Of a stretch of 20,653 nucleotides of DNA, positions 539 to 18,411 are shown piece after piece. The position numbers and the translations under genes are program-made. The stretch comes from a virus: positions 1 through 20,653 of the IMG/VR virus record IMGVR_UViG_3300028383_000163. The stretch is one strand, 5' to 3'. The notes under the pieces were generated by a model. The model was not told where the DNA came from. It made no database searches and worked only from the letters and a program-made list of their open reading frames with translations. The first letter of the stretch is position 1, and each line of letters begins with the position of its first letter.

Positions 539-1056
539 GCTGCCACCTCTGAGTCACCACGTGGCCCGTAGGCGATCATCATTTCGGGCGGGAAATCGAC
601 CCAACGAAACGCAACAAAGCTGCTGCTGTTATCAAGATTGCGCTTCCCCATGCCGGGGACGCACCCAGGCCCCGACGCCGCTAGCTTTCGCATGTAGGCC
701 GCCCGAAAAACTTTCATGTCTGCCAATGCCCACCGAACCAAGCGGCGCTCGGCTGGGCAGGCAAAGCCGTAAAAAAAATAATCGCCCCACCCTTCAATGA
801 TCTTCGTCAATTCCGTTTTAACCCCGCTGGGTCGCCCGGCACGAATCGTAAATTCGTTACCATATCGCTCAAGGTATTGGTTTTTCCTGATGCGGCAGCC
901 GATGCGCACAGCCTCCATCCGCAGCACCATCAAGTCAGTGTTGCGCTCGGCATCCTCCTCGGCAGGCGGCTCACCAATCAGGTGCTGGCCTAGTATACCC
1001 TTGATTTCCGGCAAAAACCTGTCAGACCATCGCTTGTCGTTTTGCCATTGTGTCAT
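535..1056 (-). CDS. Hypothetical 173-aa phage early protein
   Basis: A soluble 173-aa protein with no membrane segment. The middle part reads like a conserved phage protein type: a DLMVL strand, then IGCRIRKNQYLERY, then an EFTIRAGRPSG segment and a KTELTKIIEGWGDYFFYGFA segment. The spacing of Asp, an alternating hydrophobic strand with Arg, and a later Glu-containing helix is reminiscent of PD-(D/E)XK-type nuclease folds, but I see no clean catalytic motif and do not assign a function. Start and stop both overlap neighbours by 4 nt (ATGA) in the leftward early operon. The stretch around 600-930 is visibly more AT-rich than its surroundings, hinting that this gene was acquired separately. Confidence 0.65.
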   Translation of the reverse strand: MTQWQNDKRWSDRFLPEIKGILGQHLIGEPPAEEDAERNTDLMVLRMEAVRIGCRIRKNQYLERYGNEFTIRAGRPSGVKTELTKIIEGWGDYFFYGFACPAERRLVRWALADMKVFRAAYMRKLAASGPGCVPGMGKRNLDNSSSFVAFRWVDFPPEMMIAYGPRGDSEVAA

Positions 1057-2261
1057 GCCGCTTCATTCCCCCAGCCGTCGAAGCCGGCAATAGACCGGCG
1101 ATTAAACATGTCGAGGCGCCGGCCTTCGGTGACGCGGGCCACCATCTCATAGAACTCGGCCGGTTTCTCGCTATGTGCCCCGCGCGGCGCGGCAAAGCAG
1201 GTATTGAACGCCTTGGCGTCCACAAACTGCGGCGCACCCTTGCGGGCGTATATAGCAAATTCGCAGTTGTATTGGGGCAGGTTATACGGCTGGATGCCGC
1301 CCGGCTTGTGCCAGACAAAAGTGCAGACATACTTGAGCCGCCATTCGCCGAGCAAGCGCAGCGCCATCGGCATGAACTTATGCGTCGTCCAGACCCAAAC
1401 GTGGCAATCGTCTGCCATTGGCAGCTTCATCGCTGCCAGCTCTTCTTCGGTCATGGTCGGGTAGTCGAAGGCCGCTTGGTTGGGGCGACAGTCGCGCTCG
1501 ACCTTTTCCATTGGCCAAGGCGGGTCCATCACGATGACATCATAGACGCCGTGCGCCGCCTTGACTTCGCGCGCGGAAATGTCGCTCAGCTCTGCCCGCT
1601 TGGCTTCTTTCCTCGCCTGCGTTACGGCGCGCGACGATGTCAGCTCACCAGCTTTGACCTTGTCCAAAAGGTCGGGGCGGTTCTTCGCCAGATATTCGTT
1701 GCGCTCGACAGTGCCCCGGTCCACGTTCGCGGCTTTGGCCTTGCGAGACGCCCCCGCGTTCGTCGAGCCGCGGGAAGGTTTGGCGGGCGCGTCGTCCTGT
1801 CCAGTCCGCCCACAAGTTGTGGGCGCACTGGCTGCCAGCGTCCCGTCGGGCTTCCGTTCGCGAGTGTTCGCCGCCTCGGCGCGCCGCCGGTTGGCTTCCT
1901 CGCGCGCCTTGTCTTGCTCTGCCTGCCATTCGGCGTCGGCGTCTGCGCATTCCTTCCAGAGCAAATACCGCTGATCGGTGCTCAGGTCGCGTCGCTGACC
2001 GTTCAGCGACCAAGCCATCCGCCACGGGCTTACGTCGTCGGGAAGGTGCTCAAAGCGCGGCGCTACGCCAGCAATCTCGCAGGCGGCGAGACGATTTCGC
2101 CCGTCCAGCACCTTCCCGCGATAAACCTGTATCGGCTCGCGCAGACCGTTCAGCGCAATGTCGTCTGCAAGTTCTTGCAGGCGCACATCGTCCATCAGCG
2201 GAAAGACGTCCGCTGCGGGATGCGCCTCAACCGCGGTCTTGCTGTCGCCAGGTGCGTTCAA
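1053..2261 (-). CDS. ParB-like domain / MT-A70 DNA adenine methyltransferase fusion
   Basis: A 402-aa two-domain protein. Residues about 15-110 form a ParB/sulfiredoxin-like domain, with a helix-rich start and the signature VLDGRNRLAACEIAG (51-65). A charged, low-complexity linker (about 110-180) follows. From about 236 to the end is an MT-A70-type N6-adenine methyltransferase, with the catalytic DPPW at 246-249 and the SEKP segment (364-367) before a C-terminal LDMFNRR strand. MT-A70 enzymes transfer a methyl group from S-adenosylmethionine to adenine N6; in phages they usually modify phage DNA against host restriction or mark it. The start is TTG at 2261, chosen because AGGAGG (2269-2274 on the minus strand) sits 7 nt upstream and the codon overlaps the preceding stop (TTGA). 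Domain calls are confident; the recognition sequence is unknown. Confidence 0.88.
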   Translation of the reverse strand: MNAPGDSKTAVEAHPAADVFPLMDDVRLQELADDIALNGLREPIQVYRGKVLDGRNRLAACEIAGVAPRFEHLPDDVSPWRMAWSLNGQRRDLSTDQRYLLWKECADADAEWQAEQDKAREEANRRRAEAANTRERKPDGTLAASAPTTCGRTGQDDAPAKPSRGSTNAGASRKAKAANVDRGTVERNEYLAKNRPDLLDKVKAGELTSSRAVTQARKEAKRAELSDISAREVKAAHGVYDVIVMDPPWPMEKVERDCRPNQAAFDYPTMTEEELAAMKLPMADDCHVWVWTTHKFMPMALRLLGEWRLKYVCTFVWHKPGGIQPYNLPQYNCEFAIYARKGAPQFVDAKAFNTCFAAPRGAHSEKPAEFYEMVARVTEGRRLDMFNRRSIAGFDGWGNEAA

Positions 2262-2590
2262 AGCTCCACCTCCTGCCGCTCAAGCTGCTTGCGGAGCTTC
2301 TTGATTTCGGCGTCCTGCGCGTCCACGCGGCGCTGAAGGCGGGCGTTCTTCGCCTGCTCGTCCTTCATGCGCTGTTTCGCCGTGTCGCGCTGGCGCATGG
2401 CGTTGCCGAGGGCGCGACCCATGTCGTCACCGGCAAGCGCCTCCCTGAGCTGGGCCTTCGCTGCGTCTCGCTCCGCCTTGAGCTGCTTCACCGTTGCGCG
2501 AAGCTCGGCGTTCTCCTCGTGCAGCCCAACCCAGTCTTCTTTCAGAGCTTCGTGCGTCAGCTTTTCGGCTTCTTTGCTCAGGTCCTTCAT
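2258..2590 (-). CDS. Coiled-coil early protein, function unknown
   Basis: A 110-aa, highly charged protein that is almost wholly heptad-like Lys/Glu/Ala/Leu sequence. There are two helical stretches (about 1-50 and 60-110) separated by a GDDMGRALGNAMRQ turn. It looks like a long coiled coil or helical hairpin, with no enzymatic motif, Cys or membrane segment. It overlaps RusA upstream (ATGA) and the methyltransferase downstream (TTGA). It may be a scaffold or partner of one of those DNA-acting neighbours; that is inferred only from coupling. Confidence 0.65.
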   Translation of the reverse strand: MKDLSKEAEKLTHEALKEDWVGLHEENAELRATVKQLKAERDAAKAQLREALAGDDMGRALGNAMRQRDTAKQRMKDEQAKNARLQRRVDAQDAEIKKLRKQLERQEVEL

Positions 2591-3009
2591 TGCGCAACTC
2601 CTTTCGTCATTCGGGCGGCCACGTCTCCGATGTGCTGCCAGTCGTCACCGGCGCTCACTTCGACGAGCACCGCTCCGCCCGTGACGGGCTCGGCCCATGT
2701 CTCCGGCCAGACGCAGCGGAACTTCTCGTCGTCGCAGCCCATGGCCTGCGCGATGCCGTCGATCGTCGCCTTCTGCGTGGCGGGCATGTTCTGGAGGTCG
2801 CGGCGGCGCCGGTCGGGCGGGTGGAAGGCAAACACCAGGCGCGGCCGGTCGGTGTCGAGGCGCTCGACGCCGCGCCGCCGGGCCTCGCCCCATGCCTGGT
2901 GTCTGGCCGCCGCCACGGCCTTGTTGCGCTGCGCCCAATGCACGCGGCGGTTCTGCCAGAGGGCGGGCGCGGGCCACGACAGGCGCAGGAGGAACAAGCG
3001 GTCGGTCAT
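2587..3009 (-). CDS. rusA: RusA-like Holliday junction resolvase
   Basis: A 140-aa protein with the RusA layout: an N-terminal strand with PAPALWQNRRVHW (13-25), then the core HPPDRRRRDLQNMPATQKAT (63-82), and a DGIAQAMGCDDEKF helix-turn (84-97). RusA family enzymes are dimeric, Mg-dependent nucleases that cut four-way DNA junctions, resolving replication or recombination intermediates before packaging. E. coli RusA uses Asp70, Asp72 and Asp91. Here the first (D71) and last (D93/D94) are present, but the DxD motif reads D-L-Q, so the middle acid is Gln73. The start at 3009 is preferred over an upstream in-frame ATG because it overlaps the SSB stop by one base (TGATG) and the extra upstream residues are only a shadow of ssb. 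Confidence 0.75.
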   Translation of the reverse strand: MTDRLFLLRLSWPAPALWQNRRVHWAQRNKAVAAARHQAWGEARRRGVERLDTDRPRLVFAFHPPDRRRRDLQNMPATQKATIDGIAQAMGCDDEKFRCVWPETWAEPVTGGAVLVEVSAGDDWQHIGDVAARMTKGVAQ

Positions 3010-3326
3010 CAGAACGGGATTTCGTCGTCGTAGCCGCCAGCCGGGGCGTTGCCCTGCGGTTGGCGCTGTTGTCCGCCACCACCCTGATAGCCGCTCTCTT
3101 GCCGCTGCTCTTTCGGCACGAAGCACGACAGAAGCAGGTTCGACCGCCCGTCCGGGTTGGGCACGCCCGCCGGGTTGAATGTCCGGTCCAGCATCATGAA
3201 CACGCCGCCGTCGTCGTTACGCATCAGCGAGCCGACGTTGAGCCACCGGCTCTTGGTCTCGCCGGTGCGGCGGTCTTGGTATTCACCGACCTTGCACACG
3301 ATGTCGTGGGTCTTCTGCGCGGGCAT
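3009..3326 (-). CDS. ssb: Single-stranded-DNA-binding-like protein
   Basis: A 105-aa protein with a compact N-terminal domain (1-70). It has a pattern seen in small phage SSB-like proteins: a KTHDIVCKVGEY strand, a Gly/Thr turn, then KSRWLNVGSLMRNDDGGVFMML. A Gly/Gln-rich flexible linker (80-98) and an acidic-hydrophobic tip DDEIPF at the extreme C-terminus follow. That tip is the classic SSB tail used to recruit replication and repair proteins. It would coat single-stranded phage DNA during replication. It is coupled to the 48-aa ORF upstream (TGATG) and to rusA downstream (TGATG). Confidence 0.82.
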   Translation of the reverse strand: MPAQKTHDIVCKVGEYQDRRTGETKSRWLNVGSLMRNDDGGVFMMLDRTFNPAGVPNPDGRSNLLLSCFVPKEQRQESGYQGGGGQQRQPQGNAPAGGYDDEIPF

Positions 3327-3472
3327 CAGCGTGTTCCTGTATGTTTGAGAAAGCCGCCCGAGGGCCGGGAGGAGGAGGAGCCCGGCCCCCGAGCGGAGTT
3401 GCGCGGCGCGCCCGAGGGAGATTTCGGGCCGACAGGTGTGCGCCGCGGGGAGGAGGTGGTGGGCGCGGTCAT
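3326..3472 (-). CDS. Small Ser/Pro/Arg-rich ORF (48 aa) between cro-like gene and ssb
   Basis: A 48-aa frame that starts with ATG overlapping the stop of the Cro-like gene (ATGA) and ends with TGA overlapping the SSB start (TGATG). It therefore fills the only apparent gap in the operon exactly. Product is low-complexity and basic (Ser, Pro, Arg, Gly, Thr), probably disordered, with no recognisable domain. The underlying RNA also holds two hairpins: arms 3362-3369/3381-3388 (GGGCCGGG/CCCGGCCC) with a CUCCUCCUCCU loop in the transcript, and arms 3410-3415/3424-3429. The stretch may be a coding leader, a regulatory leader, or both. The exact overlaps at both ends are the main reason to call it a gene. 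Confidence 0.45.
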   Translation of the reverse strand: MTAPTTSSPRRTPVGPKSPSGAPRNSARGPGSSSSRPSGGFLKHTGTR

Positions 3473-3699
3473 TCGGCGGCCTCGCGGGGTTGCGCGTGGA
3501 CCTGCACCATCCATTCGGCGGTGACGTGGTTCATGCCGCGCCGTTGCGCAGCCTCAATGACGCTTGCCTGCCACCGCGAGGGGATGCGCCCCGAGTCTGC
3601 CCACTTGTGGACCTGCGCCACGGTCGCGCCGATCTCTTCAGCGAGAGCGCGCCGTGAGCCCCAAGCCCCGATCAGGTTCTTGATGGGAGTTTCTTCCAT
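3469..3699 (-). CDS. Cro-like HTH regulator (first gene of leftward early operon)
   Basis: A 76-aa protein with an N-terminal helix-turn-helix: GSRRALAEEIGATVAQVHKWADSGRIPSRW (14-43). This is the short Cro/YdaS-like layout of alphaproteobacterial phage regulators in which the recognition helix follows 'TVAQVHKW' and the wing reads 'GRIPSRW'. It should bind operator DNA as a dimer. It is the first gene behind the leftward promoter (-35 at 3729-3734, -10 at 3706-3711), the position of a lytic Cro. Its first codons overlap a near-consensus operator (3683-3699), suggesting autorepression. Confidence 0.78.
   Translation of the reverse strand: MEETPIKNLIGAWGSRRALAEEIGATVAQVHKWADSGRIPSRWQASVIEAAQRRGMNHVTAEWMVQVHAQPREAAE
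3683..3699. promoter_or_regulatory. Operator copy overlapping the start of the Cro-like gene
   Basis: The 17-mer ATGGGAGTTTCTTCCAT fits the operator consensus RTGGAMG-NNN-CKTCCAY derived from the other three sites with a single mismatch (position 5). Its right arm contains the start codon of the minus-strand regulator, so a bound protein would block both transcript elongation and access to that start. Confidence 0.5.
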
Positions 3700-3705
3700 A
3701 GCTCT

Positions 3706-3734
3706 TGCATATGGACGTTTCGTCCATACGTCAA
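3706..3734 (-). promoter_or_regulatory. Leftward early promoter with embedded operator
   Basis: Minus strand: -35 TTGACG (3729-3734), one base, then the perfect inverted repeat ATGGACG-AAA-CGTCCAT (3711-3727), with a -10 TATGCA (3706-3711) at 17-bp spacing. The operator fills the whole spacer, so binding would exclude RNA polymerase. It would drive the cro-like/ssb/rusA/methyltransferase operon. Confidence 0.65.
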
Positions 3735-3796
3735 GCGCGTTCTGACGTGGAAAATTTTTCGATTGGCTTACTAGGGAAGGCGTGAACTATGGCGGC

Positions 3797-4093
3797 ATGG
3801 AAGATTCGCCCCGCCCGCCTCTGCCTCATGAGCCCGTGCTAGTGGCGCGGCGACTCGCGGCGCTCCGTGAGGCGCTCGGCATGACAAAAGCCGAGTTTGC
3901 CGACCTGATTGGCGTGGACAGGTCCAGCTACACGAAGATCGAGAAGGGCGCGAAACCTCTCTTGCCCCCAAATGCTTATCGCATCTGGGAGCTGTTCGGC
4001 GTGGACATGAACTACATCTACCTCGGCCAGGTTCACACCCTGCCCGAGAACCTGTCCAAGGCGGTTACGAGCCACCTTACCCAACGGCGCTGA
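3797..4093 (+). CDS. XRE-family HTH repressor (likely immunity repressor)
   Basis: A 98-aa single-domain regulator. Seen: a Cro/C1-type helix-turn-helix, RRLAALREALGMTKAEFADLIGVDRSSYTKIEKG (about residues 18-51), then a helix continuing to FGVDMNYIYLG. No peptidase or dimerisation domain follows, so this is not a RecA-cleavable LexA/CI type. It is divergent from the Cro-like gene and lies between two operator-controlled promoters, the layout of a lambda-style immunity repressor. The start is uncertain: ATG at 3797 gives 98 aa and GTG at 3782 gives 103 aa; the only Shine-Dalgarno-like string (AGGGAAGG, 3773-3780) is too close to the GTG and too far from the ATG. The first bases (ATGGAAG at 3797) match an operator half-site. 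Confidence 0.78.
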   Translation: MEDSPRPPLPHEPVLVARRLAALREALGMTKAEFADLIGVDRSSYTKIEKGAKPLLPPNAYRIWELFGVDMNYIYLGQVHTLPENLSKAVTSHLTQRR

Positions 4094-4226
4094 TACAACT
4101 CATGGACGCCGCAGGCCGTCAGCCTGTGCAACCAAAAGAGTGCCCTTGTGCCTAATGGATACTGCGGCCCCATGCGCGCCCTCCGAAGTGTTCGCCTAAT
4201 GTTCGTTAACCTGTCGCTCCACGGCG

Positions 4227-4251
4227 CATAAGAGACCAGCCTGCTCTTATG
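4227..4251. repeat. Inverted repeat in repressor downstream region
   Basis: Perfect 8-bp arms CATAAGAG (4227-4234) and CTCTTATG (4244-4251) around a 9-nt centre, in the non-coding stretch between the repressor stop and the rightward promoter. There is no T-run, so it is not a standard terminator. It may be an RNA hairpin at the end of the repressor transcript or the site of a second regulator. The rest of 4094-4226 holds no gene I can support. Confidence 0.4.
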
Positions 4252-4258
4252 GTCAAGA

Positions 4259-4275
4259 ATGGACGTTGCTTCCAC
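4259..4275. promoter_or_regulatory. Operator copy upstream of the rightward promoter
   Basis: ATGGACGTTGCTTCCAC matches the RTGGAMG-NNN-CKTCCAY operator. It is in inverted orientation to the copy at 4291-4307, with a 15-bp gap between them that contains most of the -35 element. Two sites this close suggest cooperative repressor binding at the rightward promoter. Confidence 0.6.
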
Positions 4276-4283
4276 ATTAGCGC

Positions 4284-4312
4284 TTGACGCGTGGAAGATT
4301 CGTCCATAATGT
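4284..4312 (+). promoter_or_regulatory. Rightward early promoter with embedded operator
   Basis: -35 TTGACG (4284-4289), one base, operator GTGGAAGATTCGTCCAT (4291-4307), and a weak -10 TAATGT (4307-4312) at 17-bp spacing. This repeats the geometry of the leftward promoter at 3706-3734 exactly. It would start the rightward operon near 4319, which also means the in-frame GTG at 4291 cannot be the first codon of the next gene. Confidence 0.6.
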
Positions 4313-4374
4313 CTCCCCATCACCGCCCGCCGAAGACGCCACCGGCAGATCGCGGGCCACCGATGGGAGACGAG

Positions 4375-4563
4375 ATGATGCAGACCCCCGAGCCGACCGC
4401 GCGCGAACTCGCCGCAATCCATGACTGGGCGCTGGCAACGCGCCGCCTGCGCCGCCTCGGGCTGCTCGCCGACGCGCAGCACGACGGCGCGACCGCGACC
4501 GTCAAGGTGCGCCTGACGCGCCCGGTCACGCTGCCCGCCATGCCTGAGCGGCTGACGCGATGA
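4375..4563 (+). CDS. Hypothetical 62-aa protein, first gene of rightward operon
   Basis: Unrecognised small protein, with a helical Ala/Arg/Leu-rich N-terminal half and a short beta-like TVKVRLTRPV segment. The ATG at 4375 (another ATG follows at 4378) was chosen because GGGAG (4365-4369) lies 5 nt upstream and because the longer in-frame version would begin inside the promoter/operator. The stop overlaps the next start (ATGA at 4560). As the first gene after the repressed promoter it would be expressed early after induction. Confidence 0.6.
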   Translation: MMQTPEPTARELAAIHDWALATRRLRRLGLLADAQHDGATATVKVRLTRPVTLPAMPERLTR

Positions 4564-4706
4564 CCGCCCGCGACCGCTTCCGCGCGCTGATGGCAGAGCG
4601 CCGCCGCTACCCGCGCGGCTCCGGCGAATGGGCATGGCGCACCCGCGCCGCCCGCAAGCTGGCCTGGCTCGCCCTCGGCGTCCCGACGACCCAATGGACG
4701 GAGTGA
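4560..4706 (+). CDS. Hypothetical 48-aa basic protein
   Basis: A 48-aa frame starting with an ATGA overlap and ending 4 nt before the next start. The product is very basic (many Arg) with several Trp, and ends TTQWTE. Small Arg/Trp-rich proteins of this kind are common between early phage genes, but I recognise no family. A GGAG (4700-4703) inside its last codons serves as the ribosome binding site of the following gene. Confidence 0.5.
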   Translation: MTARDRFRALMAERRRYPRGSGEWAWRTRAARKLAWLALGVPTTQWTE

Positions 4707-4710
4707 CCTA

Positions 4711-5208
4711 ATGAAAATGCGCCCCGACCTCCCGCTGATCGAGCGCGTCGCCGCCATGCTGCGCGACATGCTCGGTGAGGGCTACGATGACGACACGTTC
4801 CTCGACACGCTGGACGGCGAGACCGACGCGGTGGAGATCGCCGACCGGCTTATCGCCTCCATGCAGGGCGACGAGGCGCTCGCCGCCGCCGCCAAGGAGC
4901 AAGCCGACGCGCTCGCCGCTCGGTCCAAGCGCCTCGGCGACCGCGCCCGCGCCAAGAAGCGCACTCTGCTCGCCGTCATGGACGCGATGGGCGTGCGCAA
5001 GCTGGAGCGGCCCGCCGCCACGCTGAGCCGCCGCGCCGGCGGTGTGTCGCTCGTCATTACCGACGAGGCCGCGATCCCGTCGCAGCTCACCCGGACGCGC
5101 GTCGAGCCCGACAAGGCCGCCATCAAGAAGCAGCTCCAAGCGGGCGAGGACGTTCCCGGCGCTGCCCTCGCGCAGGGCGACGACACCATCAGCGTGAGGG
5201 TGAAGTGA
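4711..5208 (+). CDS. Siphovirus Gp157-like protein
   Basis: A 165-aa protein with the layout of the Sipho_Gp157 family. An N-terminal helix with an acidic EGYDDDTFLDTLDGETDAVE segment (23-42) is followed by a long Ala/Lys/Arg-rich coiled-coil helix (50-95), then a beta-rich C-terminal part with TLSRRAGGVSLVI and PSQLTRTRVEPDKAAIKKQL. The family is common beside phage recombination genes; Pfam notes a link to phage resistance, but the molecular role is not established. GGAG lies 7 nt upstream of the ATG. It sits directly before the recombinase-like gene, which fits a DNA recombination or replication module. Confidence 0.75.
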   Translation: MKMRPDLPLIERVAAMLRDMLGEGYDDDTFLDTLDGETDAVEIADRLIASMQGDEALAAAAKEQADALAARSKRLGDRARAKKRTLLAVMDAMGVRKLERPAATLSRRAGGVSLVITDEAAIPSQLTRTRVEPDKAAIKKQLQAGEDVPGAALAQGDDTISVRVK

Positions 5209-5840
5209 TGGACTTTGCCAAAGTTATCGACGCCGCACGCGACGAGAACCGCCACGGCGTGCAGGTGCGCGGCGGCAAGAAATACACCACCGTCGCCGTG
5301 CGCGTGGAGGTAGCACGCCGGCACTTCGGCGCCATCGGCATCGCCACCGACGTGATCCAGTGGGCCACCGACAACGGCCAGCCTATCGTCGTGAAGGCCA
5401 CCGTCACCGACGAGGCGGGCCGCGTTCTGGCGACCGGCCACGCTGAGGAGGTGCGCGGGCAGGGCAACGTCAACCGGACCAGCGCCCTCGAGAACGCGGA
5501 GACGAGCGCGATCGGCCGAGCCCTTGCGGCGCTCGGCATCAACGGCGGTGAGTTTGCCAGCGCCGACGAGATGACACAGGCGACGGGCGGCGACGCGCCG
5601 CGCGGGCAGCCGCAATCGCAGCAGCAGCCCGAGACGCCCGAGAGCATCCGCGACCGGCTGATCGCCGCCATCGGCAAGCAAGCGACAGGCGAGGCGCTGG
5701 ACGCGCTTCTCGCGCACCCGCGCACCAAGGAGGCGCTCAACAGCCTACCGCACGACATGCAGGGCGCGGTGATGCGCGCCCAAGACGAGCGGCGCAAGGT
5801 TCTGGCTTCGGCTCAGGAGGCGGATCATGTCTACGGCTAG
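5208..5840 (+). CDS. Recombination protein, likely single-strand annealing type
   Basis: A 210-aa protein. The first 120 residues form an alternating beta pattern ending in NVNRTSALENAETSAIGRAL, followed by AALGINGGEFASADE. The 'E(N/K)AETSAIGRALA.LG' motif is a hallmark of a family of phage proteins found next to NinB, Gp157 and nucleases and often placed near ERF/Rad52-like annealing proteins. A Gln/Pro-rich linker (about 130-148) leads to a helical C-terminal region. It would act on single-stranded DNA in phage recombination; this role is inferred from family context. ATG at 5208 overlaps the Gp157 stop (TGATG); a GTG one codon earlier is less likely. Confidence 0.62.
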   Translation: MDFAKVIDAARDENRHGVQVRGGKKYTTVAVRVEVARRHFGAIGIATDVIQWATDNGQPIVVKATVTDEAGRVLATGHAEEVRGQGNVNRTSALENAETSAIGRALAALGINGGEFASADEMTQATGGDAPRGQPQSQQQPETPESIRDRLIAAIGKQATGEALDALLAHPRTKEALNSLPHDMQGAVMRAQDERRKVLASAQEADHVYG

Positions 5841-6105
5841 GGGTCAGACCGTCATTCTGCGCGGCCCGTCTCAGCGCGCGCTGGCAAAGCGCCTGATTGA
5901 CGACGCGCCCGCCGACGCGGTGGTGAACGTGGCGCTGCCTAAGCGGACGACGGACCAGAACGCCAAGATGTGGGCCATGCTGTCCGACATCTCGCGCGCC
6001 TGCCCGGACGGTCGGCAGCACACGCCCGAGACGTGGAAGCAGCTCTTCATGGACCGGCACGGCGTCGAGTGGTCTGAACCGCACCCTGACGAGAGGGCAG
6101 CATGA
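5827..6105 (+). CDS. ninB: NinB-like recombination protein, apparently internally shortened
   Basis: A 92-aa protein. Residues 1-75 follow the NinB (lambda Orf) pattern: an alternating strand-helix start, then RTTDQNAKMWAMLSDISRA (40-58) and HTPETWKQLFMD. Lambda NinB is a DNA-binding recombination mediator that can substitute for RecFOR functions. Family members are about 140 residues or longer, with a middle section and then a C-terminal '..HGV.WSEP' end. Here the KQLFMD helix is followed directly by RHGVEWSEP, so about 45 residues seem missing in frame. It overlaps the upstream gene by 14 nt and the HNH gene by 4 nt; AGGAGG lies at 5816-5821. Family assignment is good; the deletion is inferred from remembered family length. 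Confidence 0.68.
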   Translation: MSTARGQTVILRGPSQRALAKRLIDDAPADAVVNVALPKRTTDQNAKMWAMLSDISRACPDGRQHTPETWKQLFMDRHGVEWSEPHPDERAA

Positions 6106-6455
6106 CCCGTCGCCGCATGTCCACCACGCGCCGCGTGCGCATCTTCGAGGCCGCCGGCGGCGTCTGCCACATCTGCGGTCACGCCATCGACGGCACCCGC
6201 GAGGCATGGGACGCCGATCACGTTATCCCGCTGGAGATCGGCGGCGACGACACGGACGCGAACCTGCGCCCGGCTCACCGCGCCTGCCACGCCGCCAAGA
6301 CGGCGCAGGCGGACATCCCGCAGATCGCCAAGGCGAAGCGCGTCCACGCCAAGCACGTCGGCGCCCACCAGCCGCGCAGCCGCCTGCCTGGCGGTCGCGG
6401 TGACAAGCTCAAGCGCAAGATCGGCGGCGGCGTGGTGCCCCGCCATGAGGACTAG
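6102..6455 (+). CDS. HNH endonuclease
   Basis: A 117-aa protein with a complete HNH core: a zinc-knuckle pair CHICG (22-26), then DADHVIPLEIGGDDTDANLRPAHRACHAAKT (38-68), supplying the His, Asn and His of the beta-beta-alpha-metal fold plus the second Cys. The C-terminal half is basic with a KRKIGGGVVPR end. Such free-standing HNH nucleases make nicks or breaks and in phages often assist packaging or recombination. The start ATG overlaps the NinB stop (ATGA). Here it is grouped with early recombination genes, not with a terminase. Confidence 0.85.
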   Translation: MTRRRMSTTRRVRIFEAAGGVCHICGHAIDGTREAWDADHVIPLEIGGDDTDANLRPAHRACHAAKTAQADIPQIAKAKRVHAKHVGAHQPRSRLPGGRGDKLKRKIGGGVVPRHED

Positions 6456-6465
6456 GAGGCCCGAA

Positions 6466-6699
6466 ATGACTGACCTGCGCACCCGCTACCCGCACCGGCT
6501 GTGGTTGCCGCTCGCCGACACCCGCAGCCCGGCCACGCTGCACGAGCCCGCTGGCTACGACCCGACCACGAGCTGGGACGCCGCCGCCGATCGCTACGCC
6601 GAGTGGCGTGAGCAGGGCTGGGAGTGCTGGGTCGTCGCGCTCGACCTGACGACCGGCACGATCTGCGACCACACCGCCGAGGCGCACCGGTGGGCCTGA
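6466..6699 (+). CDS. Hypothetical 77-aa protein
   Basis: An unrecognised, Trp-rich 77-aa protein with a strong AGGAGG (6454-6459) 6 nt before the ATG, where the operon has a 10-nt gap after the HNH gene. The C-terminal part reads WECWVVALDLTTGTICD, an alternating strand pattern. No membrane segment. It overlaps the next small frame by 10 nt. Confidence 0.6.
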   Translation: MTDLRTRYPHRLWLPLADTRSPATLHEPAGYDPTTSWDAAADRYAEWREQGWECWVVALDLTTGTICDHTAEAHRWA

Positions 6700-6794
6700 C
6701 GCCCGATCAGGAGGCGGCCGCGCTGCGCGAGATCGCCCGCCTGTGGGCCGATCGCGTGACGCTGGCGCCGGTGCCGAAGGAGGGCGCGGCATGA
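6690..6794 (+). CDS. Very small coupled ORF (34 aa)
   Basis: A GTG-started frame of 34 residues forming one predicted amphipathic helix (QEAAALREIARLWADRV). It starts inside the end of the previous gene and stops as ATGA on the next start codon. Its sequence includes AGGAGGG (6779-6785), the ribosome binding site for the downstream gene. There is no recognisable domain; the exact overlap at its 3' end is the main support. Confidence 0.4.
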   Translation: MGLTPDQEAAALREIARLWADRVTLAPVPKEGAA

Positions 6795-7096
6795 AGCCCT
6801 ACGCCGACTGGGACAGCACCGACATCGCGCAGCACATCGAGCGCCTGCGCCGCATTGACGGCGCGCTCGGTGACGACGACCGCGCCCGTCGGGCCGATCC
6901 GCCTGCGCTCGACTATCTTGCACGCAAGCGCGCCGACGCGGTGGACACCGGCCTCGCGCGCGCGCAGCGGTGGCTCACGGTCGCGCTGGTGTTCACCGCG
7001 CTCGCCGCCGCCACGCTGGCCGTCGCCGCCTACGCCGATCCCGTTGGCCGCCTCGCCCACGACACGGCGCGCGGCGAATACTGCGGGGCGTGCTGA
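6791..7096 (+). CDS. Small membrane protein, unknown
   Basis: A 101-aa protein with a charged, helical N-terminal part (1-55) and one hydrophobic segment, WLTVALVFTALAAATLAVAA (about 57-76), followed by a short tail ending in two Cys (EYCGAC). Probably a single-span inner-membrane protein with a cytoplasmic N-terminus. ATG at 6791 was chosen for its AGGAGGG and the ATGA overlap; the frame is open further upstream without a better start. It is located among early genes rather than lysis genes, so a role such as superinfection exclusion is possible but only inferred. Confidence 0.65.
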   Translation: MKPYADWDSTDIAQHIERLRRIDGALGDDDRARRADPPALDYLARKRADAVDTGLARAQRWLTVALVFTALAAATLAVAAYADPVGRLAHDTARGEYCGAC

Positions 7097-7128
7097 TCGA
7101 ATAGCCGCACCACTCACGGACTGCGGCT

Positions 7129-7165
7129 GCGGGCGGCGTCGCTCCTCCTCCCAGGCGCCGCCCGC
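7129..7165 (+). other. Strong RNA hairpin in an 89-bp intergenic gap
   Basis: Perfect 10-bp arms GCGGGCGGCG (7129-7138) and CGCCGCCCGC (7156-7165), with a 17-nt loop that contains CUCCUCCUCCC. The loop is complementary to the AGAGGAG ribosome binding site of the next gene (about 7171-7177), so it could control its translation. There is no T-run, so it is not an intrinsic terminator. The rest of 7097-7185 shows no gene. Confidence 0.5.
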
Positions 7166-7185
7166 GACAGACAGAGGAGACCGAT

Positions 7186-7464
7186 ATGAAGACCCGCGAC
7201 GAAGCCATCCTCGATCTGGCGGATCACGCAAAGAGCCAGTGCGAGGTGCTGAAAGAGAAGATGGAAGTTGTGGTCAACGGCTTTGACTTCGACGGCGAGC
7301 GCGACCGCGAGGCCCTGTGCGGGATCACGCGCGACCGCGACGGCCGCTCGATGTTGGCCTTTGCCGAGCCGGGCACCACCGGCCAGCGCACCGTCGTTTA
7401 CGTCGATGCGATCCTCGCGCTGGCGAAACTTCTCAACGGCGAAGTGCAGGTGCAAGATGACTGA
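7186..7464 (+). CDS. Hypothetical 92-aa protein
   Basis: An unrecognised soluble 92-aa protein. Its N-terminal helix is acidic, the middle contains FDFDGERDREALCGI, and the C-terminal helix reads VYVDAILALAKLLNGEVQV. The start has an AGAGGAG box about 8 nt upstream. It begins a second cluster of overlapping small genes (7186-8492) after the hairpin-bearing gap, and overlaps the next gene by 8 nt. Confidence 0.6.
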   Translation: MKTRDEAILDLADHAKSQCEVLKEKMEVVVNGFDFDGERDREALCGITRDRDGRSMLAFAEPGTTGQRTVVYVDAILALAKLLNGEVQVQDD

Positions 7465-7789
7465 CGACACACCGCGGATGCCCGCCCGCATTTGGGCCGA
7501 CCGCTCTGACGACGACCTACCGCAATACGCGGACACGCCCTTCGGCATCTGGTGGCACGATCCGCGCGACGGATACGCGGAATACGTCCGCAAAGACCTC
7601 TACGACGCCGAGCGCAGGCGGGCCGAGGAGGCAGAGGCGGAGCGGGGCAGGTTGCGGGAGTCTGCGGCTGCGCTCTGTGTCGCTATAGAGAAGCAAAAAT
7701 CGTATGGCCTACCCGCCATTTCACCGCAAGCAGCGATAGCTCTGCACGACATCCGCGCCGCCCTGCGCCAACACGAGGGAGGGGAGTGA
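7457..7789 (+). CDS. Hypothetical 110-aa protein with coiled-coil segment
   Basis: A 110-aa protein beginning with a short beta-like domain rich in Trp and Asp (IWADRSDDDLPQYADTPFGIWWHD, here noted as positions about 12-35). It continues with a Glu/Arg/Ala coiled-coil (50-70) and a C-terminal helix. This N-terminal Trp/Tyr pattern followed by a coiled coil is frequent in phage accessory proteins of unknown function. The start overlaps the preceding gene by 8 nt, and the stop overlaps the next ATG (TGATG). Codon and base use from about 7680 on is less GC-rich than the neighbouring genes. Confidence 0.6.
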   Translation: MTDDTPRMPARIWADRSDDDLPQYADTPFGIWWHDPRDGYAEYVRKDLYDAERRRAEEAEAERGRLRESAAALCVAIEKQKSYGLPAISPQAAIALHDIRAALRQHEGGE

Positions 7790-7956
7790 TGGACAGCCTT
7801 CCCCGCGCGCTCGTTTGGGTGGCCGGCATTCTCGGGCTGGCATGGGTTGCCGTAGACCATCAGCAGCAACAGGCGAAGATTGAGGTCGCCTGCATTGAGG
7901 CAGGCGGTGAGATGACTTGGCGCAATGAATGCGAGCTGCCTGAGGAAGATGAGTGA
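7789..7956 (+). CDS. Small membrane protein (55 aa)
   Basis: A 55-aa protein with an N-terminal hydrophobic segment ALVWVAGILGLAWVAV (7-22), then a Gln-rich hinge and an acidic tail containing two Cys (…ACIEAG…NECELPEEDE). Probably an inner-membrane single-span protein with a short polar domain. It is coupled to both neighbours by TGATG overlaps, with GGGGAG directly upstream. It resembles i-spanin or membrane-accessory proteins in layout only; no lysis genes are nearby, so I leave the function open. Confidence 0.6.
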   Translation: MDSLPRALVWVAGILGLAWVAVDHQQQQAKIEVACIEAGGEMTWRNECELPEEDE

Positions 7957-8321
7957 TGGCTGAAATGATCTTTGGCGAGACCACAGCCGAGCTTTGGGAG
8001 CACGACCGCTGGGAACTGGTCGAGCCTGTGATCGCCTCGACCGATGACGGAGAGACGCGGGTGACCATTCCCTCTGGCACGGTGCTGCATGTCAGGCGCC
8101 GGGTGACGCAGTGGCCTGAGATTACTCGTGCCAATGAGCGCAAGAAGCTGCTCGCGCTGGCGGATGCCCTTTTCGACGACCTTTTCGAGGCAGCCGATGG
8201 AGAGATCCTAGAAGAACTGCGGGAGGCGGGACACACGCCAGAAGCGCTGCGGCAGGAGCGGCGGAAAAACCTTGAGGAGGCCGAAAAGGCAGCCGCCTCA
8301 CCCCGAGAAGACGAGGGCTGA
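7956..8321 (+). CDS. Hypothetical 121-aa protein
   Basis: Unrecognised. The N-terminal half (1-55) is beta-rich (…RWELVEPVIASTDDGETRVTIPSGTVLHVRRRV, in pieces), and the C-terminal half is a long, strongly charged Glu/Ala/Leu/Arg helical region likely to form a coiled coil. ATG 7956 gives a TGATG overlap; the GTG one codon earlier is an alternative. It lies in a lower-GC cluster of small accessory genes just before the integrase. Confidence 0.6.
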   Translation: MAEMIFGETTAELWEHDRWELVEPVIASTDDGETRVTIPSGTVLHVRRRVTQWPEITRANERKKLLALADALFDDLFEAADGEILEELREAGHTPEALRQERRKNLEEAEKAAASPREDEG

Positions 8322-8324
8322 CCG

Positions 8325-8492
8325 ATGGCGTCGCCGCGCGTGGAGACGATAGAGCGCCGCATCAAGGCCGCCGAGGCCGCGGGCTACGTCGTGCGCTGCA
8401 TCCGCGCCGACGGCTCGCTAGAGGTGGACAAGCGCGACGAAGCGCGGGACCGTGAGCCTGACCTGTCCCTGATCGACATGAGCAAGCGATGA
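8325..8492 (+). CDS. Small conserved-looking protein (55 aa) upstream of integrase
   Basis: A 55-aa frame starting 3 nt after the previous stop and ending ATGA on the integrase start. The N-terminal helix ETIERRIKAAEAAGY is followed by a VVRCIRADGSLEVD beta-hairpin-like segment and an acidic tail. Small proteins with this 'helix plus R.DGS' layout often precede integrases in alphaproteobacterial prophages. An excisionase or directionality role is possible because of the position, but no winged-helix motif is evident. Confidence 0.55.
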   Translation: MASPRVETIERRIKAAEAAGYVVRCIRADGSLEVDKRDEARDREPDLSLIDMSKR

Positions 8493-8598
8493 AGCGCGAC
8501 CGCCCCCGCTACGTCTACGAGAAGCCCGGCGGGCTCTACTTCTGGCGCCGGCCGGGCGCGGCCGTGAAGATGCAGGCCGAGCCCTTCACCGAGGCGTG
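8489..8598 (+). pseudogene. int: Integrase N-terminal (arm-binding) fragment, cut by internal deletion
   Basis: The frame opening with MKRDRPRYVYEKPGGLYFW and continuing to KMQAEPFTEA is the typical small N-terminal region of phage tyrosine integrases, which contacts arm-type att sites. After about 36 residues the homology stops, and the rest of this frame (to 8920) is a shadow of the catalytic domain read in another frame. The core-binding domain expected next, roughly 100 residues, is absent. The start ATG overlaps the 55-aa gene (ATGA), so this is the original translation start of int. Confidence 0.65.
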
Positions 8599-9180
8599 GT
8601 CGATCAGGGCTGGCGCGACGACAACCCGGCGCGGGGCGTGCAGACCGTCTATCGGCCGAGCGGCACGCGCCAGCCGTGGCCCGAGGATCTGGTCGCCACG
8701 GCGCGCGAGGCAGCGACGGGCGACACGCTGCTACTGTTCGAGCTGCTCGTCGGGACCGGCCAGCGAATCGGTGACGTGCTGCGAATGCGGTGGGCCGACA
8801 TCGCCGGCGACGCGATCTTCGTCGGGCAGTCCAAGACCGGCGCGGAGCTGTGGGTGCCGTTCACCGATCGGCTGCGAGAGGTGCTGCGCGAAGCCCCGCG
8901 GCGCGGCGAGACGATCCTGACCAGCAAGCGCGGCGGGCCGCTCAGCTACCGCGCCGCCGCCGACCGGATGCGCAAGCTGCGCGAGCGAATCGGGGCAGGG
9001 GAGGCGCATGACACGCACGCCCTGCGCTACACGACCACCGCCGAGCTGGCTGCGCTCGGCTGCGACGACGACCTCATCATGGCCGTCACCGGGCACCGGA
9101 CGAAGGCGATGGTCGAGAAATATGCTGGCGCGGCCCGGCAGAAGGTGCGCGCCATCGAGGCGCAGAGCCGCCGCAAGTGA
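8596..9180 (+). CDS. int: Tyrosine integrase catalytic domain (core-binding domain missing, frameshifted from its start)
   Basis: A 194-aa frame (GTG at 8596) with a complete catalytic domain. It has the first Arg in GTGQRIGDVLRMRW (R57), Lys80 in the beta-hairpin SKTG, the HALRYT box (H141, R144), His167 in TGHRTKAMVEKYAG, and nucleophile Tyr176. Tyrosine recombinases cut and rejoin att sites through a 3'-phosphotyrosine. Its opening VDQGWRDDNPARGV is normally the end of the core-binding domain, so the protein is joined directly to the N-terminal fragment in a different frame. There is no ribosome binding site at 8596. As it stands the enzyme should be inactive unless rescued by a sequencing or assembly correction. 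It ends 78 bp before the attachment core. Confidence 0.8.
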   Translation: MVDQGWRDDNPARGVQTVYRPSGTRQPWPEDLVATAREAATGDTLLLFELLVGTGQRIGDVLRMRWADIAGDAIFVGQSKTGAELWVPFTDRLREVLREAPRRGETILTSKRGGPLSYRAAADRMRKLRERIGAGEAHDTHALRYTTTAELAALGCDDDLIMAVTGHRTKAMVEKYAGAARQKVRAIEAQSRRK

Positions 9181-15981: not shown

Positions 15982-16580
15982 GTCGTGGCCCCCGCATAAG
16001 CCGCGCTGAACGCTGCGGCGATTTCAATCTGCGCCAGCGCGTCCACGGTTGTCGCGGCGTCGATTTGCTGACCGACCGCCTTCTCGGCACTGAAGCAGCG
16101 CTGCACGTGGTCGGCGACGGCCTGCGCGACGGGCTGAAACTCGGCCAACGTGACCGAAACCCAGCCGCCCTGGGCCTTCCAGTCGGCGCTGGCGACGAGG
16201 CCGTCCTTGAGCGAGCTGTAGGTGCTGGCGATCTGCGCTTGCGCCTCGCGGGTCGTCTGGATGCGCTGGCCGCTCGGAAGGTCCACACCGCCGGTCTCCT
16301 GACGCCACCGATAGTCGGCGAGGCGGGCGTGCTGCTCGGCGCGGACGTCCTCAATCTGGCGTGGCACGACCTCCCACGTCTGGACGAGATCGCCGCTCGC
16401 GTCTCGCGTCGGCTTGCGCTGCGCCACGCTGTGCGTCAAACGGTCGTGCGGCGGTTTCGGTGTGGGCTTGACCGGCTCGAAGAACCGAGCGGGCAGGCCG
16501 CGGCCAGCGATATGCGCGGGCAGGACAGGCCATTGAGTAACCTGACCGGCTGCGTCGGTGCGTGCGTATGTGGTGATCAT
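15978..16580 (-). CDS. DUF4376-containing tail-fibre-associated protein
   Basis: A 200-aa protein. The first 100 residues contain a proline-rich EPVKPTPKPPHDRL stretch and a tail-fibre-accessory-like TWEVVPRQIEDVRAEQHARL segment. The last 110 (YRWRQETGGVDLPSGQRIQT, EAQAQIASTYSSL, then FQPVAQAVADHVQRCFSAE) match the DUF4376 pattern seen in proteins encoded directly after phage tail fibres. It probably assists fibre assembly or forms a fibre-end piece. ATG 16580 starts 12 nt after the expected (unshifted) end of H at 16592, which supports both calls. Because of the H frameshift, the actual H frame now runs 230 nt into this gene. Confidence 0.78.
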   Translation of the reverse strand: MITTYARTDAAGQVTQWPVLPAHIAGRGLPARFFEPVKPTPKPPHDRLTHSVAQRKPTRDASGDLVQTWEVVPRQIEDVRAEQHARLADYRWRQETGGVDLPSGQRIQTTREAQAQIASTYSSLKDGLVASADWKAQGGWVSVTLAEFQPVAQAVADHVQRCFSAEKAVGQQIDAATTVDALAQIEIAAAFSAAYAGATT

Positions 16581-18411
16581 GGTGGCTGCCCTCACTCGAA
16601 GATGTATGCGCTGCCGCTGTCGGTGCCGTTGTCGTCGTCGAGGTAAGCCCCGACAATCGCGTAGTCGCCGGAAATCGCGACAGAAGTGCCGAAGTAGTCG
16701 CTCGTCGCCCCGTCGCTGGCGAGCAGCTTCGCGACTTCGGTCCAGTTGCCGGTGCCGTCGCGCTCGAAAACGTATGCGCTGCCGCTGTCGGTGCCGTTGT
16801 CGTCGTCGAGCGCGCCCCGACAATCGCGTAGCTGCCGGAAATGGCGACGGGACCGCCGAACAGGTCGCCCGATGCCCCGTCACTCGCGAGCAGCTTCGCG
16901 ACCTCGGTCCAGTTGCCGGAGCCGTCGCGCTCGAAAACGTATGCGCTGCCGCTGTCGGTGCCGTTGTCGTCGTCTTCATAAGCCCCGACAATCGCGTAGC
17001 TGCCGGAAATCGCGACAGAAATGCCGAATTGATCGCTCGAATCGCCGTCGCTGGCGAGCAGCTTCGCGACCTCGGTCCAGTTGCCGGTGCCGTCGCGCTC
17101 GAAAACGTATGCGCTGCCGCTGTCGGTGCCGTTGTCGTCGTCCGTGCCGCTCGGCACGGCGATCGACTCGAGGTTCGACGTATCTGCCAAGCTCTCGTAG
17201 ACGATCGCCGTGAAGCCGCTGTCGGTCGCGATCTGCCAGTCCGTGCTGGCGTGCGTGTCGGCGCCGTTCGGATACGTCAGGAACGCCAACGTCGTGAGCG
17301 TCGGGCCGGAGCCGATGTCGGTCGCGCCGTCGACCGGGCTCAGGATTTCCGGCTGCGCGACAGACTGGTCGCCCACCGCGATCTGGAACACGACCGTCGC
17401 GCCGTTGCGCTCGACCGACAGGTTCAGCTGGTCCGCGGTTTCGGCGGCGTCGATGTCCAGCGTGATGGTCTCGTTCGACCGCGACACCGTGCCGACGTCG
17501 GTCGTCACCGCGTAGGTGCTGAACCCGTCGTAGTTGGTGATCGTGTAGGTGTTCGACGAGCCCGGGAACACGAGATCCGGGCCGGTCAGCGTCACGCTCG
17601 TCACGCCGACGGTGCCGACCTCCTCGTTGTTGATGAACTCGACCTTGGTGCCGTCGGTCAGCGGACTGTCAAGCTGCACCTGCGTCGCGTTCAGCGCCTG
17701 CCATTCGTCGTTGCGCAGCCGCACCCCCTCGACGTAGACGGCCAGCCCGTTCGTGCGGGTTTCCGCCAAGTTGAACACGGTCTGCCCCGCAATGGCCGTC
17801 CGCGTCTCGGCGATTGACGCAACCCGCACCCCGAGCCCTTCGGACGGGTCGAACCATTCCGTGTCGCCCTCGGCGTTCGTCGCCTTCCGAAGCAGCTGAC
17901 CGACGAGCCCGCCTTCCGGCAGAATGTAGGGCCGGATCTCCTCGATGTCGGCCTTGGTCGCGATCGTGATGTAGTCGTCGATCACCGCGGTGACGTTCGT
18001 CGCCGTGCCGATCACCGTAATCAGATCGAAAATCTGCTCGACGACGGTCGCGCCGCCCTCGGCCGGCAGGAAATCAGACTGCACCCCGCTGTTCGCGTAG
18101 GAGTAGAGCGTCTCCTCGAGCGTGTCGGGATCCTGCGCGAACACGCCGATCTCGCGAACGAAGAACCCCTGCGTGACGCCCTCGTTCGTCAGGATCGCGC
18201 GAATCTTCGACGTGCCGTCGCCGAGCACCTCGAACGACTGGATCGACAGCGACTTCTCCTCGCTGACGAGCGCGGTCAGCGATTCCGGGTTCGCGGGCAT
18301 CGACCCGTCGCCGAGCGCCACGCGCGTGAAGTTGAGCTGCTGACCGATCTGCGCCTTGGCCTGCAGGTTGCGCCCCGCGTCGGTCAGGATGAGTCCCGGG
18401 AAATTTGCCAT
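16351..18411 (-). CDS. H: Tail fibre protein H with FG-GAP-like repeats, frameshifted near its 3' end
   Basis: The open frame gives 686 aa. Residues 1-150 are the conserved tail-collar/fibre N-terminal domain (ILTDAGRNLQAKAQIGQQL, GFFVREIGVFA, YSYANSG) that attaches to the baseplate. A linker follows (REVxx-type ILPEGGLVGQLLRK near 163), then two beta-sandwich-like domains (about 265-345 and an FN3-like 353-423). From 424 come 56-residue FG-GAP-like repeats (DDDNGTDSGSAYVFERDG…). One repeat is 1 nt short (about 16808-16815), after which the frame turns to low-complexity Thr/Ala/Ser/Arg sequence and stops at 16351. Restoring one base would end the protein at 16592 with 606 aa, 12 nt before the next gene. 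It determines host receptor binding. Confidence 0.85.
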   Translation of the reverse strand: MANFPGLILTDAGRNLQAKAQIGQQLNFTRVALGDGSMPANPESLTALVSEEKSLSIQSFEVLGDGTSKIRAILTNEGVTQGFFVREIGVFAQDPDTLEETLYSYANSGVQSDFLPAEGGATVVEQIFDLITVIGTATNVTAVIDDYITIATKADIEEIRPYILPEGGLVGQLLRKATNAEGDTEWFDPSEGLGVRVASIAETRTAIAGQTVFNLAETRTNGLAVYVEGVRLRNDEWQALNATQVQLDSPLTDGTKVEFINNEEVGTVGVTSVTLTGPDLVFPGSSNTYTITNYDGFSTYAVTTDVGTVSRSNETITLDIDAAETADQLNLSVERNGATVVFQIAVGDQSVAQPEILSPVDGATDIGSGPTLTTLAFLTYPNGADTHASTDWQIATDSGFTAIVYESLADTSNLESIAVPSGTDDDNGTDSGSAYVFERDGTGNWTEVAKLLASDGDSSDQFGISVAISGSYAIVGAYEDDDNGTDSGSAYVFERDGSGNWTEVAKLLASDGASGDLFGGPVAISGSYAIVGARSTTTTAPTAAAHTFSSATAPATGPKSRSCSPATGRRATTSALLSRFPATTRLSGLTSTTTTAPTAAAHTSSSEGSHHDHHIRTHRRSRSGYSMACPARAYRWPRPARSVLRAGQAHTETAARPFDAQRGAAQADARRERRSRPDVGGRATPD
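16604..17142 (-). repeat. Tandem 168-bp repeats in tail fibre gene
   Basis: The anchor GTATGCGCTGCCGCTGTCGG starts at 16604, 16772, 16939 and 17107, giving spacings of 168, 167 and 168. Each unit encodes 56 residues of an FG-GAP-like repeat (…SGSAYVFERDG.GNWTEVAKLLASDG…). The middle unit lacks one base. The units are near-identical, so unequal recombination could change repeat number. Confidence 0.9.

Follow-up and report, generated by a model that had tools for sequence, protein, structure and literature searches.

A predicted lambda-like immunity region with one operator type at two early promoters in a Rhodobacterales phage family

The window analysed here is a virus contig of 20,653 nucleotides (IMGVR_UViG_3300028383_000163), probably a fragment, in which copies of a 17-bp inverted repeat lie between two divergent helix-turn-helix (HTH) genes and again at a second early promoter. 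This locus raises the question of whether the repeats are operators of one immunity switch and, if so, which of the two HTH proteins reads them. On the evidence of sequence, we consider it very probable that they are the operators of a lambda-like immunity region (OR1, OR2, OL1 and OL2, with one more site on the start codon of cro), through which a small repressor would silence both early operons.

Operator sites and early promoters

A pattern scan of the window located the motif RTGGAMGNNNCKTCCAY exactly at positions 3711–3727, 4259–4275 and 4291–4307, and with one mismatch at 3683–3699. When three mismatches were allowed, the scan returned 13 sites against 9.6 expected, which is not above chance. 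The consensus is therefore weak proof by itself, and a weight matrix was made from relatives only, trained on 56 operator sites in 20 loci and with the window left out. The five best sites of this matrix in the 20.6 kb start at 3711 (26.0 bits), 4291 (24.9 bits), 3683 (24.4 bits), 3747 (20.3 bits) and 4259 (19.3 bits), and the sixth reaches 8.5 bits. All five exceed the best score found over 300 dinucleotide shuffles of the whole window (18.6 bits), so the four copies claimed in the earlier note are real and are joined by a fifth at 3747–3763, which that note had missed.

The top-ranked site, OR1 (ATGGACGTTTCGTCCAT, 3711–3727), is a perfect 17-bp operator that takes up the spacer between −35 and −10 in the leftward (cro) promoter and is found in the same place in 25/25 relatives. 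The OR2-like site (GTGGAAAATTTTTCGAT, 3747–3763; rank 4) is degenerate, with three mismatches, and lies at +36 from OR1, that is, 10 bp or about one helical turn beyond the +25/26 of the relatives, its flanks aligning with those of OR2 in the relative L007. At the other end of the region, OL1 (GTGGAAGATTCGTCCAT, 4291–4307) is an exact match of rank 2 that likewise fills the rightward early promoter's spacer and is also present in 24 other loci; OL2 (4259–4275), exact and of rank 5, is 32 bp upstream of it. The remaining site (3683–3699; one mismatch, rank 3) covers the cro start codon at 28 bp from OR1. Counterparts at −29 from OR1 occur in L022 and L056 and are absent from the other 18 loci of the same scan; this operator may represent a further OR-side site in these two phages and that of the window.

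The leftward promoter, Pcro (3706–3734, minus strand), comprises a −35 element TTGACG (3734–3729), a 17-bp spacer in which a single T precedes the operator, and a putative −10 element TATGCA (3711–3706) that starts at 3711, with a predicted transcript start at about 3699. The rightward promoter, PL (4284–4312, plus strand), comprises TTGACG (4284–4289), a C, the operator and a putative −10 element TAATGT (4307–4312), with a predicted start at about 4319. Both −10 elements are weak relative to E. coli (three of six bases each, by our own count), and an E. coli-type sigma-70 scan reported no promoter. The two calls therefore depend on conservation among relatives, where TTGAC is found at the cro-type promoter in 23 of 26 loci. 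The identical geometry of the two promoters that had been proposed (TTGACG, one base, operator, −10 at the last base of the operator) holds in the window but not in the relatives, whose second promoter usually has no base, instead of one, between TTGACN and the operator. No convincing candidate for a cI promoter was found by eye between OR2 and the start of cI.

Of the 25 loci measured, 22 have the start codon of cro 11–16 nt past the operator, which places it at, or a few bases from, the predicted transcript start. The other three are L024, where a second in-frame ATG restores the usual spacing, L051, with the start at +8 and a GTG at +14, and L057, with the start at +28. We predict a leaderless mRNA for cro, a feature shared with the telomere phage PY54, for which a leaderless cro mRNA was mapped (PMC4488713); in prophage CP-933P, by contrast, the leaderless mRNA is that of the repressor (PMC8630535).

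Conservation of the operator arrangement

The repressor-sequence search recovered loci from Rhodobacterales genomes and virus contigs, mostly Rhodobacterales phages and prophages, and 25 distinct relatives were analysed (L007, L009, L012–L015, L017, L018, L021–L027, L029 and L051–L059). All 25 are recoverable by repressor sequence and not by the motif alone; L007 and L009 were first spotted by motif and later recovered by protein. Of 394 genomes from one host family, 24 contain a repressor relative. A palindromic operator lies within the spacer of the cro-type promoter in every relative and within that of the downstream early promoter in 24 of them, OL1 not being found in L017. The spacer-filling operator, a standard and common repression geometry, is thus not the unusual feature that it had been taken for.

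The typical layout places OR1 in the spacer of the divergent cro promoter, OR2 at +25/26, OR3 at +40/41 and OL2 30–31 bp before OL1. Within the ATGGA class (21 loci including the window), the OR2 offset is 25/26 in 13 loci, the OR3 offset is 40–42 in 14, and OL2 is found at −30 to −32 in 19. The spacing between OR1 and OL1 is 536–564 bp in 22/25 loci (about 545 bp) and 580 bp in the window, which retains OR1, OL1 and OL2 together with one OR2-like site and the extra site on the cro start codon.

Such sites are rare elsewhere. Outside the immunity region of the ATGGA-class loci, only three of 131,068 positions gave a matrix score of 12 bits or more. The composite TTGACN{1,2}RTGGAN7TCCAY occurs 13 times in the 394 genomes of the host family, nine of them beside a repressor gene, and its reversed control gives six matches. 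Composites flanking a repressor gene are found in 5/11 genomes with a strong repressor match vs 4/383 others (p 7e-7). The natural operator types are ATGGA, ATCGA and GGGAA, and they occur alongside changes in the recognition helix. A simple scan of the more distant repressor relatives L060–L072, a weak one since the loci were not all oriented, found no such operator grammar. Another motif match, L008 in a 177-kb contig, was set aside as chance, as the stretch examined has no recognised HTH gene pair.

A shortened version of the region is present, as the same sequence, in two metagenome contigs, L034 (IMGVR_UViG_3300001740_000004) and L035, where OR1, OR2, OL2 and OL1 are kept beside a cro-like gene and OR1 and OL1 are only 107 bp apart. 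A cI-type gene was found in neither of these records, which are both fragments. This could reflect recent loss of the cI-type gene, or use of the sites by some other protein, be it Cro or the repressor of a resident prophage.

The protein that reads the operators

The rightward gene (3797–4093, plus strand) encodes a 98-residue CI-like repressor with a single HTH_3 domain (PF01381, E 6.7e-12). Its structural model (mean pLDDT 88) consists of six helices in one helical domain, the HTH being formed by helices 31–38 and 42–49. The profile search matched HTH families only, and neither search nor model revealed a peptidase or LexA-like autocleavage/oligomerisation domain. Foldseek neighbours are XRE-type regulators, 434 Cro, lambda CI and P22 c2, at E-values of 0.01 or weaker, which support the fold class alone. 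The leftward gene (3469–3699, minus strand) encodes a 76-residue Cro-like HTH protein with a carph-isopro domain (NF046037, E 1.7e-11; 44.1 bits, over the curated cut-off of 38). It also shows a weak likeness to YdaS (PF15943, E 2.3e-5) and P22 Cro (PF14549, E 0.047), both below cut-off, and a profile search of the PDB from the Cro alignment gave insignificant matches only. The annotated phage collection holds no relative of either protein and no DNA match to positions 3400–5900.

Operator distance among the loci correlates with the distance between the 98-aa repressors once Cro is controlled for (partial Mantel r 0.47, p 0.0002), with r 0.60 for the HTH regions of the repressor only and r 0.43 (p 0.0002) without the ATCGA loci; inside the ATGGA[AC]G class the correlation is weaker (r 0.30, p 0.025), and such tests correct for shared ancestry only in part. 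The Cro-like protein served as linkage control because its gene is nearer to OR1, and its distances show no correlation with the operators when the repressor is held fixed (r −0.11). The operator sequence thus tracks the repressor and not the Cro-like protein, which makes the 98-aa repressor the likely binder; of the two binders that the earlier note had named, covariation favours this one and gives no sign for the other. Three loci, L054, L055 and L057, have C instead of G at base 3 of the operator, and their recognition helices carry TSYGR where others have SSYSK-like sequences. The repressor tree places this switch in a single event, so that it is suggestive only. The best covariation with base 3 is shown by repressor residues S43 and K47; aligned by way of dh434, a sequence derived from 434, they correspond to Gln29 and Gln33 in the 434 repressor, two residues that contact bases.

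It could also be that both proteins bind all the operators with opposite orders of preference, as lambda CI and Cro do, a reading to which we give somewhat less than an even chance. It is suggested by a layout collinear with that of lambda and by CP-933P, where the stretches of DNA protected by PaaR2 and YdaS overlap at both promoters (PMC8630535), and the operators kept in L034 and L035, where no cI-type gene was found, leave room for binding by Cro. The lack of correlation between operator and Cro given the repressor argues against it, as does the comparison of L051 with L054, whose Cro proteins are 60% alike although their operators differ and their repressors are only 32% alike; moreover, the Cro of PY54 binds a single site (PMC4488713). 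The converse, in which the Cro-like protein is uncoupled from the operators and acts at another site or otherwise, leaving the small repressor as their sole reader, seems to us possible but rather doubtful; were the operators read by the repressor alone, immunity specificity would be re-codable through one regulator.

That the palindromes belong to a host regulator, or to that of another phage, and merely lie beside the two HTH genes is very improbable, as host genomes contain almost no copies of the composite site in other places and the operator sequence shifts with the adjacent repressor. Chance palindromes in promoter regions, for which the three-mismatch count near expectation might speak, are refuted by the five sites that beat all shuffles under an independently trained matrix and by positions conserved across the 25 relatives.

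The proposed switch and its context

In the switch that we favour, the 98-aa repressor, probably as a dimer, would bind each 17-bp inverted repeat. OR1 and OL1 fill the spacers between −35 and −10, so that repressor bound there would exclude RNA polymerase and keep both early operons silent in the lysogen. The flanking operators, at a distance of roughly 2.5–3 helical turns, would probably allow cooperative binding and autoregulation of cI. On loss of the repressor, Pcro would produce the predicted leaderless cro mRNA and both operons would fire. Since the repressor has no LexA-type domain, RecA-stimulated self-cleavage cannot drive induction, which would have to follow another route, for example an antirepressor.

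After cro, the Pcro operon (1053–3326, minus strand) encodes a small conserved protein (3009–3326), a RusA-like resolvase (2587–3126) and a ParB/MT-A70-like methylase (1053–2261). The PL operon (4711–9180, plus strand) runs from a Gp157/Gam-like gene (4711–5208) through a member of an unnamed phage family (5205–5840), NinB (5827–6105) and an HNH-like ORF with other small ORFs to part of a tyrosine integrase (8596–9180). The lambda-like arrangement proposed earlier is thus supported, in that one operator type is found in the promoters of a cro/RusA/methylase and a Gp157/NinB/integrase operon. The integrase frame looks split: translation across 8489–9180 (plus strand) hits a stop and the catalytic part begins at 8596, which may reflect a frameshift or a sequencing error.

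As in lambda, cI and cro diverge, several similar operators lie between them (3711 and 3747, plus 3683), and a second cluster (OL1, OL2) is found at the other early promoter; cro heads one early operon, recombination genes and the integrase are in the other, and the gene order is collinear. Unlike lambda, the repressor is of 98 residues without a cleavable C-terminal domain, the operators are of 17 bp (7-3-7), and the Cro analogue comes from a different family. Neither between the two regulators nor beside them could an N-, rex- or cII-like gene be recognised. P2-type immunity, with a C repressor of 99 aa, has face-to-face promoters and a direct-repeat operator; it was ruled out here, as the genes diverge and the operators are inverted repeats.

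In its working mode the region would most closely resemble PaaR2/YdaS/YdaT of CP-933P in E. coli O157:H7, where a small CI-type repressor likewise diverges from a YdaS-type Cro analogue and several 18-bp inverted repeats are found at PR and again at the downstream PL (PMC8630535). The operator sequence is different there, and the toxin–antitoxin genes of CP-933P were not seen in the window phage. RacR of the Rac prophage also binds repeats between divergent regulator genes and silences ydaS, whereas a second operator region is not described in the available part of that report (PMC5700373). PY54 differs in having one Cro operator that is not common to OL (PMC4488713).

We found nothing on such a system in the open-access literature on Rhodobacterales immunity regions or carph-isopro proteins. 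The analysis defines a predicted immunity switch for a Rhodobacterales phage family, a lambda-style on/off switch ordinary in kind. Operator sequence and position provide a rule able to predict which prophages exclude which phages, and the natural operator types with their recognition-helix changes make the co-evolution of repressor and operator directly testable.

The tail region of the window is P2-like. Its association with the operator arrangement, to which the earlier note had drawn attention, is incidental, P2 GpU being found only in the window and L017 among 11 phage records. L017 (IMGVR_UViG_3300035034_001839), the only other tested phage record to combine the same immunity region with P2 GpU and Baseplate_J, is also the only one of 11 relatives with Baseplate_J. 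At the tail-fibre position, an ORF at 16351–18411 (minus strand) contains near-repeats of the GSAYVFERDG type and overlapping long frames, and has a repetitive look.
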